From the NCBI GenBank assembly GCA_947259995.1, contig CAMYOK010000006.1:124001-188000 (forward strand): 64,000 nt of DNA, written 5' to 3'. The translations under genes were made by a program, and so were the position numbers. This document shows positions 20,638 through 26,303 of the stretch, piece after piece. The notes under the pieces were generated by a model. That model worked only from the letters and a program-made list of their open reading frames with translations. It made no database searches and was not told the origin of the DNA. The DNA is from an uncultured Pseudomonadales bacterium. GTDB taxonomy: Bacteria > Pseudomonadota > Gammaproteobacteria > Pseudomonadales > Pseudohongiellaceae. Each line of letters opens with the position of its first letter. Positions within the stretch are counted from its first letter, which is position 1.

Positions 20638-22374
20638 TTACATCTTCTCTAAGGTGTTGAGCCCTAAAAGAGAGAGGCCTTTTTCGAGCGTTTTGGCCGT
20701 AAGATTCACAATTTTCAAGCGCGAGGCGCGCACTTCTGGTTCTGCCTTGAGCACTGGGCAGGCTTCATAGAAGCGCATGAACAACCCTGCTAGCTCATAC
20801 AAATAGGCGCATAAATAATTAGGCAAACCATCTTGGGCGACGACAAGAATTGTCTCTTGAAATTGTAAGTTCTTCAGTATTAATTTGCGCTCTTCTTCGG
20901 CGGTGATACGCAGGTTTACCTCGCCAGCAAGCTCTGCCGCTTCGTCCTTGCGTAAGATGCTTTTGATTCGTGCAAAGGCGTACAACATATACGGAGCGGT
21001 ATTGCCTTCAAACGATAACATCGTGCTCCAGTCGAACACATAGTCACTAGTTCTGTTTTTCGATAAATCAGAATATTTAACCGCGCTAATGCCAACGACC
21101 GATGCAATCTGAGCGCGAGTCTCTTCATCCAGAGATGGATTCTTTTCGCTGACGATTGCATGTGCGCGGCGCACTGACTCTTCGAGAAGGTCGACTAGCT
21201 TAACATTATCACCACTTCTCGTTTTGAAAGGCTTGCCGTCTTCGCCCATCATCATGCCATAGGCAATATGTTCCAAAGAGCATGACTCTGCTGCCATACC
21301 TGCTTTGCGGGCAATCGCGAACACTTGCTGGAAATGCAGGCTTTGACGCGCATCGACTACATAGAGAACGCGATCGGCTTTGAGTGTGCTGGCGCGGTAC
21401 TCAATAGCAGCAAGATCTGTTGTCGCATAGAGATAACCGCCATCGGATTTCTGTACGATAGTTGGCAGCGGCGCCCCTTCTTTGCCAGTAAACTCATCCA
21501 TGAAAACGCATTTGGCGCCTTCGGAGATGCTGAGCAAGCCTTTGTCGTCGAGTGACTCGATGATATGCGCGAGCTGCGGGTTGTAATAACTCTCTGGCTT
21601 TAAATCTGCACGGCTAAGCGTGACGCCTAGCAATTCATAAACGCTTTCGCAGTGGCCGAGTGAGGTATCGATAAACATGCGCCAGGCTTGCAAGCAGTCT
21701 TCATCACCCCCTTGTAACTTAACCACGTAATTGCGGGCCGTCTCAGCAAAGCCGGGCTCATTGTCAAAGCGTTGTTTGGCCTCCCGGTAAAAGGTTTCCA
21801 AATCGGATAATTGCAATGAGAGTTTGTCGTTCTCGGTTTGCAATGACTCCATATGCGCGATCAACATCCCAAACTGGGTGCCCCAGTCACCCACATGATT
21901 CTGACGAATCACTTCGTGGCCGCTCGCCTCTAATACCCGTACAAGACAGTCGCCGATAATCGTGCCGCGTAAATGCCCAACGTGCATTTCTTTCGCTAGG
22001 TTTGGGCTTGAATAATCCACGACAATGCGCTGCGCTGTGGCGACTGGTTCGATCAGTGGCTGTTCGTTCTGCGCGTAGTGTTCGCCCCAGCGAGTTAAAT
22101 AATCATCGACTAGAAACAAATTGATGAAGCCAGGGCCTGCGATTTCGGCGCGCTCGATAAGCTCGTTCTCAGCAATAGCAGCAAGGACCTTTGCCGCTAA
22201 CTCGCGAGGATTAGTCTTGGCCCGCTTGGCAACTGCCATCACTCCGTTAGCTTGGTAATCACCAAACTCGGGGCGGGTGGCATAAATGACATTGCCGTTA
22301 CTTCCGCTTAAGCCAGTGGCTTCATCGATCGCAGCGCTCAAGAGCTCTTCGAGCGCGTGTTTAATATTGAACAT
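20638..22374 (-). CDS. argS: Arginyl-tRNA synthetase
   Basis: Charges tRNA-Arg with arginine (class I synthetase). 578 residues from the ATG at 22374 (E. coli 577). Features: the N-terminal Add1 tRNA D-loop binding domain, the HIGH-equivalent HVGHLRGT following SSPNLAKEM, the KMSKS-equivalent segment GKPFKTRSGDNVKL and the C-terminal helical anticodon-binding domain ending SLLGLNTLEKM. An in-frame start further upstream at 22437 is rejected because the extra 21 residues lack family similarity and would reach into the rluC control region. Confidence 0.97.
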   Translation of the reverse strand: MFNIKHALEELLSAAIDEATGLSGSNGNVIYATRPEFGDYQANGVMAVAKRAKTNPRELAAKVLAAIAENELIERAEIAGPGFINLFLVDDYLTRWGEHYAQNEQPLIEPVATAQRIVVDYSSPNLAKEMHVGHLRGTIIGDCLVRVLEASGHEVIRQNHVGDWGTQFGMLIAHMESLQTENDKLSLQLSDLETFYREAKQRFDNEPGFAETARNYVVKLQGGDEDCLQAWRMFIDTSLGHCESVYELLGVTLSRADLKPESYYNPQLAHIIESLDDKGLLSISEGAKCVFMDEFTGKEGAPLPTIVQKSDGGYLYATTDLAAIEYRASTLKADRVLYVVDARQSLHFQQVFAIARKAGMAAESCSLEHIAYGMMMGEDGKPFKTRSGDNVKLVDLLEESVRRAHAIVSEKNPSLDEETRAQIASVVGISAVKYSDLSKNRTSDYVFDWSTMLSFEGNTAPYMLYAFARIKSILRKDEAAELAGEVNLRITAEEERKLILKNLQFQETILVVAQDGLPNYLCAYLYELAGLFMRFYEACPVLKAEPEVRASRLKIVNLTAKTLEKGLSLLGLNTLEKM

Positions 22375-22451
22375 GGTCCTAACCCTAAATACAAAATGGC
22401 AGCAATTGTACACTATTGGAGGAGCATATTTAGGCATTGCCCGTGCAGTAT

Positions 22452-22460
22452 TGCTACAAT
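22452..22460 (+). promoter_or_regulatory. Candidate extended -10 of rluC
   Basis: TGCTACAAT: an extended -10 (TGN plus TACAAT, five of six) located 32 nt before the rluC GTG start in the argS-rluC divergent gap. No good -35 is visible at normal spacing. Low confidence. Confidence 0.35.
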
Positions 22461-22491
22461 AGCGCGCTCAAATAGCGAGAGTATCTCCATC

Positions 22492-23472
22492 GTGGCAAGT
22501 CAGCAATCCTCCGACAGCAGTAATACCATAAGCGCCAAGGTGCAGCTTTTGGAGATAGGGCCGCATTCGGAGTTGCAGCGACTCGATAACTTCCTATTAA
22601 GCAAACTGAAAGGCGTCCCTAAATCGAAGATCTATCGTGTGATTCGTAAGGGTGAAGTGCGTATTAATAAAAAACGCGCGAAACCGGAAACCAAATTACA
22701 TGCCGGCGATATCGTGCGTGTGCCACCGATAAGAGTGGCAGAGCCGAGCGTTATCATCCCTCCTAGTGCCAGCTTAGTGCAATTGCTCGACAGTGCCGTA
22801 TTGTATGAGGACGACAATGTCCTAGCGATTAACAAGCCGCAAGGGCTCGCTGTGCATCGAGGCTCAGGCACACAGATCGGTTTGATCGAGGCCTTGCGGT
22901 TTATGCGGGCTGCGCCAGCGGACCCAGAATTTTTTCTAGAGCTTACCCATCGCATAGACAAAGAAACAACAGGCTGCGTAGTTATCGCCAAAAACCCTTT
23001 ATATTTAAAGCACATGCAGCGTGAATTTAAAGAAAGACTTGTACATAAAACCTATCAGTTAATCGCCCATGGCGCGTGGCCAAAAGACGTCATTGAGGTC
23101 AATGCTCCCTTGCTCAAACACGATGTGCAGGGAGCTGAGAAGATTGTTACGGTAGACCCAGAAGGAAAGAGTGCGGTTACGCATTTCAGCTTGATAGAGG
23201 CCTTGCAAGATTCGAGCTTCGTTGAGGCCAGGCCAGTGACCGGTAGAACTCACCAGATTCGTGTGCATTGTCAGTATGCTGGCCACCCCATAGTGGGGGA
23301 TCGAAAATACACGAGTAAGGCTAACAATGCGTTGGCGCAGCATAAACAGTTATGCCTACACGCTGCCAAAATCGAATTTACCGCCATCGATGGTCAGACA
23401 ATCCGAATCGAAGCGCCAATAGCGGGCGCAATGCAGGAACTGCTTGAAAGGCAAAGGGCAAAAACGAGGTAA
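22492..23472 (+). CDS. rluC: 23S rRNA pseudouridine synthase (RluC family)
   Basis: Isomerises specific uridines in 23S rRNA. 326 residues from the GTG at 22492 (E. coli RluC 319); longer in-frame starts reach back across the divergent argS start and add unrelated sequence. An N-terminal S4 RNA-binding domain (about 25-80: RLDNFLLSKLKGVPKSKIYR...GEVRINKKRAKPETKL) precedes the synthase domain. The catalytic aspartate lies in LTHRIDKETTGCVVIAK, with RTHQIRVHCQYAGHPIVGD further on. RluC versus RluD is assigned from length and S4 pattern. Confidence 0.9.
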   Translation: MASQQSSDSSNTISAKVQLLEIGPHSELQRLDNFLLSKLKGVPKSKIYRVIRKGEVRINKKRAKPETKLHAGDIVRVPPIRVAEPSVIIPPSASLVQLLDSAVLYEDDNVLAINKPQGLAVHRGSGTQIGLIEALRFMRAAPADPEFFLELTHRIDKETTGCVVIAKNPLYLKHMQREFKERLVHKTYQLIAHGAWPKDVIEVNAPLLKHDVQGAEKIVTVDPEGKSAVTHFSLIEALQDSSFVEARPVTGRTHQIRVHCQYAGHPIVGDRKYTSKANNALAQHKQLCLHAAKIEFTAIDGQTIRIEAPIAGAMQELLERQRAKTR

Positions 23473-23517
23473 AAATAGTAAAATGTCGAAATATCATGCC
23501 TTTGAGGACAGATTTTT

Positions 23518-23546
23518 TTGACAGATGGGCTCTAGACGCCTATTAT
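23518..23546 (+). promoter_or_regulatory. Near-consensus sigma70 promoter of yceD-rpmF-plsX
   Basis: TTGACA (23518-23523, perfect -35), exactly 17 nt, then TATTAT (23541-23546, five of six). Standard spacing puts transcription start at about 23552-23554, only 2-4 nt before the yceD ATG at 23556. It drives an operon for ribosomal protein L32 and fatty-acid/phospholipid synthesis. Confidence 0.8.
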
Positions 23547-23555
23547 TGCGCGCCT

Positions 23556-24086
23556 ATGGCAGACACCCTTATTCCAGACTATGTTGACGCAAGGAAAATC
23601 TTTGCCCAACAGACACTTATAGAAGGTGTACTCCCAATCTCGCGTTTACCGAGATTCTGCGAGGCCATTTTGGATACTGAGGGCAACGTGCAAGTCTCCT
23701 TGCAGTTTCGCCTCGATGACAGTTTTAGAAGATTGATCCAAGGCTCATTGCAAGCCCAAGTACATGTGACTTGCCAGCGTTGTCTAGAGCCGATGACGAT
23801 TACGCTAGAGGATCAGTTTGAACTGGCAGTAGTGCATACAGAAGAACAGGTGCAAAAACTGCCAAAAACGCTAGACCCATGGGTTTGTGAAGACGTTAAG
23901 CTAGTCCTCGCAGAAGTGATTGAAGAACAATTAATCCTCTGCATGCCTATCGTCAGCTACCATGAAGAACACTGTATTGCTTCGCTAGAGTTTGCAGCGA
24001 AGCAGGCAAATAAGCCCAATGCTAAGCAGGGCGAGCAAGGGAGCGATAATCCTTTTGCGATTTTGCAGAAACTGAAAGACAAGTAA
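23556..24086 (+). CDS. yceD: YceD family (DUF177) protein, 23S rRNA accumulation protein
   Basis: 176 residues. YceD/DUF177 proteins are encoded next to rpmF and are implicated in 23S rRNA or ribosome assembly. The conserved core is VHVTCQRCLEPMTITLEDQFELAVV, with LVLAEVIEEQLILCMPIV and a C-terminal NPFAILQKLKDK. The ATG at 23556 is chosen because MADTLIPDYVDARKI aligns with the start of Pseudomonas homologues. The upstream in-frame ATG (23496) lies before the promoter. No Shine-Dalgarno is present. Confidence 0.92.
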   Translation: MADTLIPDYVDARKIFAQQTLIEGVLPISRLPRFCEAILDTEGNVQVSLQFRLDDSFRRLIQGSLQAQVHVTCQRCLEPMTITLEDQFELAVVHTEEQVQKLPKTLDPWVCEDVKLVLAEVIEEQLILCMPIVSYHEEHCIASLEFAAKQANKPNAKQGEQGSDNPFAILQKLKDK

Positions 24087-24145
24087 TTAAAGATTTCATT
24101 TATAGGCGCTTTGACTAGCGCGGTAACACACTAGGAGCTACAAGC

Positions 24146-24325
24146 ATGGCTGTTCAACAGGTAAAAGTATCACGCTCACGTCGCAACATGCGTCGCGCAC
24201 ACGATTCATTGACAGGTCCTACTTTGTCTACTGATCAAACGACTGGCGAAGTTCACCGTCGTCACCACGTGACTGCCGATGGTTTCTACAAAGGCAAGAA
24301 AGTGTTGGATCTTGGCGACAAGTAA
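24146..24325 (+). CDS. rpmF: 50S ribosomal protein L32
   Basis: 59 residues, too short for many ORF lists. It begins [20 protein letters not shown], the L32 signature, followed by [18 protein letters not shown]. This version lacks the four-cysteine zinc motif, as in most gammaproteobacteria. GGAG (24134-24137) precedes the ATG. It is located 59 nt after yceD and 8 nt before plsX, the conserved yceD-rpmF-plsX order. Confidence 0.97.
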
Positions 24326-24333
24326 AACTGTCT

Positions 24334-25362
24334 GTGCCTAAGTGCATTGCAATTGATGTCATGGGAGGGGATTTTGGCCCTTCCGTGACAGTTCCTGCGG
24401 CACTTCGGGCACTGCATGCTCACGACGACCTATCTTTGATCTTGGTGGGTGATGAGCCGCAAATCAACGCTTTGTTATCCGGTGCCAGTGCAACGCTTCT
24501 ACAGCGACTGGAAATCCTTCATACCAGCGTGCGTGTCGAAGACGACTGTAAACCTGAGTCCGTTTTACGCAAGTCGAAAGAATCCTCCATGTTTCTCAGC
24601 GTGAACCTTGTCAAAGAGTCTCGCGCCGATGCCTGCGTGAGTGCTGGCAACACGGGAGCACTCTTACTCGCAGGACGCCATCTGCTCAAAACTATTCCCG
24701 GTGTTTCAAAGCCTGCCATCATCGCCAATATCCCCTTGTACGAAGATCAACGCCACACCTACATTTTAGACGTAGGTGCGAACGTCACGAGTGAGGCTAA
24801 GCAATTACACGAGTTCGCCATTATGGGTTCGATACTCGCCCAGGCAGTTGACGCGATTGCTCAGCCGCGAGTGGCCTTGCTTAACGTGGGGCACGAAGAA
24901 CATAAGGGAACGGCACAAATTCGTGACGCCGCTAGACTAATAGAGCAGACCAGTTCGATCAATTATGTTGGCTATATCGAAGGCAATGAGATCTTCAGTA
25001 ACAAGGCGGATGTTGTGGTCTGCGATGGTTTCGCGGGTAATGTCACGATTAAGACTAGCGCCGGCGTAGTGAAAGTCCTAGAGCGTTTATTAAAAGCGCA
25101 GGCGTCCAAGGGGCCGTTCTCAAGATTAATGACGATTGCCGCAGCGCCAATGTTGCGCCGACTGCGCAAGCAAATCGACCCTGTGCAGTTTAACGGTGCC
25201 AGCGTCTTAGGCTTGCAGGGAATCATCGTGAAAAGCCACGGACACGCGCAAGTACAGGCGTTTTATTACGCTATCGAGCAAGCTTTTAAAGAAGTCACTG
25301 ATTGCGTACCGCAACTGATCAGTGCGCGTATGAACGAACTTACTATGAATCAAGGAAATTGA
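24334..25362 (+). CDS. plsX: Phosphate acyltransferase PlsX
   Basis: Makes acyl-phosphate from acyl-ACP for phosphatidic acid synthesis; a peripheral membrane enzyme. 342 residues. It starts PKCIAIDVMGGDFGP, the family's N-terminal signature, and contains SAGNTGALLLAGRHLL and VCDGFAGNVTIKTSAG. The start is GTG 8 nt after rpmF. fabD follows 2 nt after its stop; there is no fabH between them, unlike in E. coli. Confidence 0.96.
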   Translation: MPKCIAIDVMGGDFGPSVTVPAALRALHAHDDLSLILVGDEPQINALLSGASATLLQRLEILHTSVRVEDDCKPESVLRKSKESSMFLSVNLVKESRADACVSAGNTGALLLAGRHLLKTIPGVSKPAIIANIPLYEDQRHTYILDVGANVTSEAKQLHEFAIMGSILAQAVDAIAQPRVALLNVGHEEHKGTAQIRDAARLIEQTSSINYVGYIEGNEIFSNKADVVVCDGFAGNVTIKTSAGVVKVLERLLKAQASKGPFSRLMTIAAAPMLRRLRKQIDPVQFNGASVLGLQGIIVKSHGHAQVQAFYYAIEQAFKEVTDCVPQLISARMNELTMNQGN

Positions 25363-25364
25363 TA

Positions 25365-26303
25365 ATGAAGAAATTTGGCTTTGTATTTCCTGGGCAAGGG
25401 TCTCAACGCAAAGGGATGTTAAGTGATTTAGCAGCACAATACCCACTGGTTCAGGAGTGCTTTGCAGAGGCTTCGCAAGCACTCGGCATGGATCTCTGGG
25501 ATGTTTGTCAAAACGACCCACAAGGTTTGTTGGACCAAACCCATATCACTCAACCTACATTATTGACTGCCTCGGTAGCAGTTTGGCGGGTGTGGATGGA
25601 GCAGGGCGGGGCATTGCCAGAGTTACTCGCCGGGCACAGCCTTGGCGAATATTCAGCCTTAGTATGTGCCGATGTGCTTAGCCTAGGCGATGCCGTGAAG
25701 TTAGTGCATAAGCGCGGTTTATATATGCAAGAAGCGGTGCCCAGCGGCACTGGCGCCATGGCCGCCATTCTAGGGCTCGATGATGAAAAAATCATCGCTA
25801 TCTGTGCAGAGCAAGCACAAGGCGAAGTAGTGGCTCCAGCGAACTATAACTCTACTGGGCAAACAGTGATTGCAGGGTCCACTGCCGCAGTAGAGCGCGC
25901 CATGGCTGCGTGCAAAGAAGCCGGCGCTAAACGTGCATTGCTGCTCAATGTCAGTGTCCCTTCGCATTGTGCGTTGATGAAACCAGCGGCCGATCGCCTA
26001 GCGGCTGATCTAGACGCCGTTGAGTTCAAGACACCGAAGATTCCGGTAGTACAAAATATTCATGGCCGCGTGGCAAAGAGCTCAGACGATATTAAGCAAA
26101 ACCTACTCAAGCAGCTCTATATGCCAGTCCAGTGGGTTGAGAGTATCGGTTGCATGTGGGATTTCGGGCTAAGCCAAGTGGTAGAATGCGGGCCTGGAAA
26201 AGTACTCGGTGGCCTGATAAAACGCATTGAGGCTGATATGGGCACCTTCTCAACGGAAGCGCCCGATCAATTTGCCCAAGCCCTGGCAGAAATCACTCAT
26301 TAG
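25365..26303 (+). CDS. fabD: Malonyl-CoA:ACP transacylase
   Basis: Loads malonyl groups onto ACP for fatty-acid elongation. 312 residues (E. coli 309) from the ATG at 25365, which has AAGGAA 8 nt upstream. Motifs: FVFPGQGSQRKGM, the nucleophile serine in LAGHSLGEYSAL, and SVPSHCALMKPAA with the catalytic histidine. The gap to plsX is 2 nt, so the two are probably translationally coupled. Confidence 0.97.
   Translation: MKKFGFVFPGQGSQRKGMLSDLAAQYPLVQECFAEASQALGMDLWDVCQNDPQGLLDQTHITQPTLLTASVAVWRVWMEQGGALPELLAGHSLGEYSALVCADVLSLGDAVKLVHKRGLYMQEAVPSGTGAMAAILGLDDEKIIAICAEQAQGEVVAPANYNSTGQTVIAGSTAAVERAMAACKEAGAKRALLLNVSVPSHCALMKPAADRLAADLDAVEFKTPKIPVVQNIHGRVAKSSDDIKQNLLKQLYMPVQWVESIGCMWDFGLSQVVECGPGKVLGGLIKRIEADMGTFSTEAPDQFAQALAEITH

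Follow-up and report, generated by a model that had tools for sequence, protein, structure and literature searches.

The locus described here raises the question of where the mRNA of a gene begins when its promoter leaves almost no room for a leader. The gene is yceD, and its start codon lies only nine nucleotides downstream of a putative -10 hexamer. The locus is found in a stretch of 64,000 nucleotides from an uncultured Pseudomonadales bacterium (assembly GCA_947259995.1, contig CAMYOK010000006.1), and this whole stretch is referred to as the window. A sequence-only reading of the window had concluded that the yceD mRNA would be leaderless, and this main inference is probably right. The explanation that we favor with high confidence is a sigma-70 promoter of rRNA type with a built-in yceD start codon, which would yield a leaderless, weakly translated YceD and a strongly translated ribosomal protein L32 from one mRNA.

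Genes at the locus

The rluC-like gene, yceD, rpmF, and plsX are all on the plus strand of the window. The gene yceD (23556 to 24086) encodes a DUF177 protein, the 23S rRNA accumulation protein, of 176 amino acids when it is read from the ATG at 23556. The protein matches PF02620 with an E value of 1.1e-17 and 64.6 bits, above the gathering score of 33.2. Its match to the PRK11193 equivalog (E value 1.7e-27, 96.5 bits) falls below the curated cut-off of 192, and it is therefore assigned to PF02620 only. Downstream is rpmF (24146 to 24325), which encodes ribosomal protein L32 and scores over the cut-off of TIGR01031. A Shine-Dalgarno sequence, AGGAG, can be read before it at 24133 to 24137. The next gene, plsX (24334 to 25362), encodes a phosphate acyltransferase and scores over the cut-off of TIGR00182. 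The open reading frames 3' of plsX are taken as fabD and then fabG from their translations. From their adjacency, it appears that the mRNA could extend beyond rpmF to plsX and further in the window. PMC3896788 describes a longer mRNA from upstream promoters that takes in yceD, rpmF, and plsX. In E. coli, fabH sits between plsX and fabD, whereas no fabH-sized open reading frame is present between plsX and the fabD-like frame in the window (24334 to 26303).

Upstream of yceD is an open reading frame for an rluC-like pseudouridine synthase (22357 to 23472). It scores over the cut-off of TIGR00005 and below that of PRK11025. A weaker promoter-like site, TAGGCA-18-TACAAT followed by the G+C-rich AGCGCGCTC, is found at 22431 to 22469, upstream of the rluC-like gene. 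The end of the rluC-like frame is 83 nucleotides from the yceD ATG, and no terminator-like site was found on the plus strand between the two. No known RNA element was found at 22000 to 25000 at E values up to 1.

Start codon of yceD

Position 4 of the NCBIfam profile PRK11193 corresponds to residue 24 of the long open reading frame, which places position 1 of the profile at the methionine encoded at 23556. This agrees with the start codon that the sequence-only reading had selected by homology. That reading had also held that no other start codon fits, and in this it overlooked an ATG at 23496 to 23498 that is in frame with yceD and opens a frame of 196 amino acids. Translation of an N-extended protein from this ATG in the present species, with the promoter-like sequence being coding, was considered and is very unlikely indeed. 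The frame is open with an equivalent ATG in 4 of the 12 loci from the genus (the window, L002, L007, and L010). In seven others (L003, L004, L005, L006, L008, L009, and L012) a stop is present at codon -17, three codons after the upstream ATG. The remaining locus, L011, has no in-frame start before a stop at codon -25. Among farther relatives, L017, L018, L022, L024, and L025 have TAA or TAG within the -10 hexamer itself, five codons before the ATG.

The same was found in the class-wide sample that is described below. An in-frame TAA or TAG lies inside the -10 hexamer in 25 of the 60 class loci with a spacing of nine nucleotides, and 45 of the 78 conforming loci have an in-frame stop somewhere between the -35 hexamer and the start. 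Counted against this, some in-frame ATG, GTG, or TTG lies upstream in an open frame in 26 of the 78. The family profile begins at 23556, and there is no Shine-Dalgarno sequence before 23496 either. The ATG at 23496 is thus rejected, and 23556 is taken as the conserved start of yceD.

Promoter and discriminator

The promoter proposed by the earlier reading, TTGACA-17-TATTAT, was borne out at 23518 to 23546. The -35 hexamer, TTGACA, is at 23518 to 23523, and the same or a close hexamer is present in relatives. The -10 hexamer, TATTAT, is at 23541 to 23546, after a spacer of 17 nucleotides. Nine nucleotides, TGCGCGCCT (23547 to 23555), separate it from the ATG at 23556 to 23558. This discriminator is G+C-rich and ends in pyrimidines. 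It contains no Shine-Dalgarno sequence, and none precedes the yceD ATG in the window, as the earlier reading had stated. A G+C-rich discriminator is one mark of a stringently controlled (rRNA-type) promoter, and it is present here as TGCGCGCC.

Of the seven promoter-like sites between 21000 and 27000, only that of yceD matches the consensus at 11 of 12 positions. Seven sites are not above chance, as shuffled sequence gave 6.2 (standard deviation 2.1), so that local promoter statistics alone are insufficient for the claim. This count is what would be expected if the promoter-like match had merely fallen beside a start codon by chance, and that explanation is weighed with the class-wide counts below.

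A second conserved block, approximately GTCGAAAWATCATGCCKTTGTGA, lies 5' of the -35 hexamer at 23480 to 23503. It is recognizable by eye in 11 of 11 distinct loci from the genus and was not seen in the other relatives' loci compared. It is not enriched as a recurring site in the genome, where seven matches with up to three mismatches were found against five in the control. The block is perhaps a factor site or an UP element.

Predicted transcription start

Transcription of yceD is predicted to start between 23552 and 23556 on the plus strand, from the positions of purines and the precedent of rrnB P1. Two purines are available, G23552, which is 6 nucleotides after the -10 hexamer, and A23556, which is 10 nucleotides after it. 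A start 10 nucleotides after the -10 hexamer is longer than usual. In the 78 conforming class loci, the fraction of purines after the -10 hexamer is 0.81 at position 6 and 0.18, 0.06, and 0.10 at positions 7, 8, and 9; the value of 0.81 at position 10 follows from choosing loci with an ATG there, which is not so for the other positions. The base before the start codon is T in 68 of the 78.

The sequence-only reading had placed the start 2 to 4 nucleotides before the ATG, which would be C23554, C23553, or G23552. Of these, G23552 is kept. A leader of 2 or 3 nucleotides appears less likely than one of 4 or 0, because the nearest purines are G23552 and the first base of the start codon. The yceD mRNA should therefore start at A23556, with a bare 5'-AUG, or at G23552, with a leader of four nucleotides. 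Leaderless mRNAs are defined in PMC3293720 as those with the AUG 0 to 6 nucleotides from the 5' end, and a start at either predicted position would qualify. As read here, the geometry would permit only very short leaders from the near promoter.

A start far from the -10 hexamer has been described for stringent promoters of the rrnB P1 type. According to PMC7822876, the G+C-rich discriminator of rrnB P1 goes with a start 9 nucleotides downstream of the -10 hexamer through scrunching; an alternative start at -3 is used when the complex is unscrunched, and the promoter is sensitive to DksA/ppGpp. The yceD promoter resembles it in its G+C-rich discriminator and in the unusual distance of the predicted start purine from the -10 hexamer. 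It differs in that it serves protein-coding genes and in that the purine at which transcription is likely to start doubles as the first base of the ATG, 10 nucleotides from the -10 hexamer. An UP element or factor site, moreover, is only conjectural at the yceD promoter.

Conservation in close relatives and named genomes

Whether relatives keep the distance from promoter to ATG had been suggested as a check, and they do. For the close relatives, 57 genomes were searched and 53 had a match. The best 30 of the 53 loci were read, including the window and some near-copies (L007 and L010). All 30 have a TTGAC -35 element, a spacer of 17 nucleotides, and an ATG; in 28 of these best 30 the ATG is in frame and exactly nine nucleotides after the -10 hexamer. 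The two others are L019, where the ATG is 10 nucleotides from the -10 hexamer and out of frame, and L029, on the minus strand, where the ATG at nine nucleotides opens a frame of five codons (MTTNP, stop). The yceD frame of L029 has its own ATG a few bases past this stop, and this could possibly be a frameshifted start that is rescued by reinitiation.

The loci from named genomes illustrate the layout more than they test it, as their scan favored the layout that was expected. It was found in 74 of 80 loci (the best 80 of more than 500), of which at least five (L034, L035, L036, L041, and L044) overlap with the close relatives. Seven of the 74 were scored as having a TTG at 11 nucleotides and can be read with an ATG at 8 nucleotides. 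Six loci missed the layout. L053 and L108 contain N, and L094 has by eye a spacer of 18, a distance of 9, and an ATG. L099 and L075 have TATAAT 9 and 10 nucleotides before an in-frame ATG, without TTGAC, and in L069 the -10 hexamer is 16 nucleotides from the ATG. The layout is present in Pseudomonas, Marinobacter, Alcanivorax, Halomonas, and Marinomonas.

Conservation across the class

The class was sampled through 140 genomes, each from its own family as far as families are listed. A YceD match was found in 109 of them, and the 31 without one were left aside. With the genome of the window also set aside, 108 loci were tested. At each locus, the 170 nucleotides upstream were scanned, and the best promoter-like site among them was chosen regardless of the start codon. 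Shuffles of the upstream stretch kept dinucleotides by segment swaps over 20 rounds, with approximate mixing.

The first in-frame start codon is 8 to 10 nucleotides after the -10 hexamer in 78 of the 108 loci and exactly 9 nucleotides after it in 60, compared with 5.5 and 1.8 in the shuffles. When only ATG is counted, it lies 7 to 10 nucleotides after the -10 hexamer in 81 loci and exactly 9 after it in 61 (2.66 and 0.74 in 50 rounds of shuffling). A promoter score of at least 11 was reached in 37 of the 108 loci, compared with 0.1 in the shuffles. The geometry is thus far beyond chance across relatives. A chance match beside the start codon is already contradicted by this conservation and retains next to no probability. 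Among the 27 misses are loci with no good promoter, with a distance of 11 to 12 nucleotides, and with a longer spacing. They also include L143, which was counted as a miss (its sequence was taken one base short) and reads as 9 nucleotides.

A -10 hexamer about 10 base pairs upstream of the start that is kept in orthologs is a sign of a leaderless gene, and it was found in these 81 of 108 loci. The start codon is ATG in 77 of the 78 conforming loci and in the window, as is expected of a leaderless mRNA. None of the 78 has a Shine-Dalgarno core at -16 to -5, in part because the -10 hexamer and the G/C discriminator fill that space. The composition of the discriminator is conserved in the 39 class loci that have the exact spacing of 17 and 9 nucleotides and were aligned on the ATG; in this profile, the hexamers and the ATG are conserved partly because the loci were selected by them. 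Most of the families sampled from the class, that of E. coli among them, retain the spacing. A leaderless yceD mRNA, with 0 to 4 nucleotides before the AUG, is strongly supported by this conserved distance, and it looks like a class-wide feature and not a peculiarity of this genome.

Escherichia coli and leadered mRNAs

In E. coli MG1655, yceD is preceded by TTGACT, a spacer of 17 nucleotides, TAATAT, and GCGCGCCCT, with the ATG at the annotated start. The yceD-rpmF pair of E. coli is orthologous to that of the window and has the same geometry of 17, 9, and ATG with a GCGCGCC-type discriminator. Its hexamers are further from the consensus than those of the window, and its upstream neighbors are sraB and a divergent yceF instead of rluC. 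PMC4378010 includes yceD-rpmF of E. coli among operons of unequally translated genes, and a single sentence there describes yceD as being without a 5' noncoding leader and as translated less efficiently. Reduced 23S rRNA is reported in PMC5049393. The sequence-only reading had regarded leaderless initiation here as unusual in gammaproteobacteria. For yceD, it appears instead to be the common state, given the 81 class loci, the same geometry in E. coli, and the existing description of E. coli yceD as lacking a leader.

The main alternative is that yceD is translated chiefly from longer, leadered mRNAs, produced by read-through from rluC or from an upstream promoter, with the near promoter being minor or serving only rpmF and the later genes. 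The short distance from rluC and the lack of a terminator-like site between the two would make read-through possible. For E. coli, a preprint (PMC13060810) lists two promoters, yceDp1 and yceDp2, so that leadered yceD mRNAs may coexist there. However, no Shine-Dalgarno core precedes the start in any of the 78 conforming loci, the sequence 5' of the -35 hexamer is not conserved between families, and the fixed spacing from promoter to ATG would have no reason to persist if the promoter served only rpmF. Mainly leadered translation of yceD is therefore considered decidedly unlikely.

Leaderless mRNAs of enterobacteria, such as lambda cI, tetR of Tn1721, and those of 33 Salmonella genes detected by dRNA-seq, have an AUG at most 6 nucleotides from the 5' end and no Shine-Dalgarno sequence (PMC3293720). 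The same is predicted for yceD. Of the 33 Salmonella genes, 17 are described in PMC3293720 as regulators, membrane proteins, or pathogenicity genes. In contrast, yceD is a ribosome-assembly gene that adjoins rpmF, and its spacing is conserved across the class. The main texts of PMC2760140, PMC3415461, PMC7132871, PMC5864184, and PMC3293720 do not mention yceD or rpmF, and those of PMC4176332, PMC7563307, and PMC8577284 do not mention rpmF or L32; the search covered main texts, and gene tables are in the supplements. No description of a class-wide leaderless yceD or of its conservation was found in the literature searched, chiefly the main texts of openly available papers.

Proposed mechanism and its significance

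The preferred explanation is that yceD has a sigma-70 promoter of rRNA type, with near-consensus hexamers, a G+C-rich discriminator, and the yceD start codon at the transcription start. RNA polymerase would start either on the first base of the ATG or four bases before it, on G23552, and the AUG would be at the 5' end of the mRNA or within a few bases of it. YceD would then be made by leaderless initiation, which is expected to be weak, as has been reported for E. coli only. L32 would be made strongly from its own Shine-Dalgarno sequence on the same mRNA. The operon as a whole had been called leaderless by the earlier reading; this would hold for yceD and does not apply to rpmF, which has its own AGGAG. 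The genes would be switched as one unit, while YceD, a ribosome-assembly factor, would be kept scarce relative to the ribosomal protein L32. The promoter would be of the growth-controlled type, and control by growth rate (ppGpp) is suggested by its likeness to rRNA promoters.

A more speculative extension has a small chance of being correct. The fixed nine-base discriminator could have been selected so that the polymerase chooses between G at position 6, with a leader of four bases, and A at position 10, with a bare 5'-AUG. The choice of start and the state of the ribosomes could then set the output of YceD, because leaderless initiation is sensitive to the distance of the AUG from the 5' end and can proceed on whole 70S ribosomes. 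A 23S rRNA factor would in this way be under feedback control by growth signals and by ribosome assembly. The arrangement would date from the ancestor of the class and would have followed the loss of a leader that is still present in an outgroup family.

Of 239 gammaproteobacterial genomes, only 15 were predicted to have leaderless genes, and the lack of such genes in the others was interpreted as a loss (Zheng 2011, PMC3160421). Against this background, yceD is a candidate leaderless gene whose layout is retained in 81 of the 108 loci drawn from families of the class and in E. coli, beside the genes for L32 and lipid synthesis. The surprise thus shifts from a feature that seemed unusual here to one that is kept across the class. 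With yceD, leaderless initiation and the reasons for its retention by selection could be studied in a native gene, and the conservation of the discriminator suggests a link with control by growth rate.

Other classes and the rest of the genome

The loci of other classes were the best 30 of 112 YceD matches, all from other classes of the phylum. As the Pfam match begins within the protein, there is more doubt about their start codons. A convincing leaderless yceD was not seen in these 30. An in-frame start lies 7 to 10 nucleotides after the best promoter-like site in two of them, L234, where the site scores only 6, and L250, where a TTG is at that distance but an ATG with GGAGG is 21 nucleotides further on. 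In family f171 of another class (L237, L246, and L250), yceD has a similar promoter, TTGACC-16-(C/G)ATAAT followed by GCGCGC or GCGACC. Unlike in the window, the distance from the -10 hexamer to the ATG is 54, 32, and 31 nucleotides by eye, and the ATG is preceded by GGAGG. A promoter of this kind with a GGAGG leader suggests that the yceD promoter may predate the leaderless state. The f171 loci are possibly a record of the loss or gain of a leader.

Within the 3.46 Mb genome itself, the pattern TTGAC-N18-TANNAT-N5-10-ATG has two matches, and a control with the pattern backward has one. The match other than yceD lies downstream of tRNA-Pro. It was considered as a second leaderless gene of the yceD kind and rejected, as its ATG starts no listed open reading frame of at least 50 amino acids. 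A looser pattern of promoter and ATG gave 14 matches in the genome, compared with five in the control.
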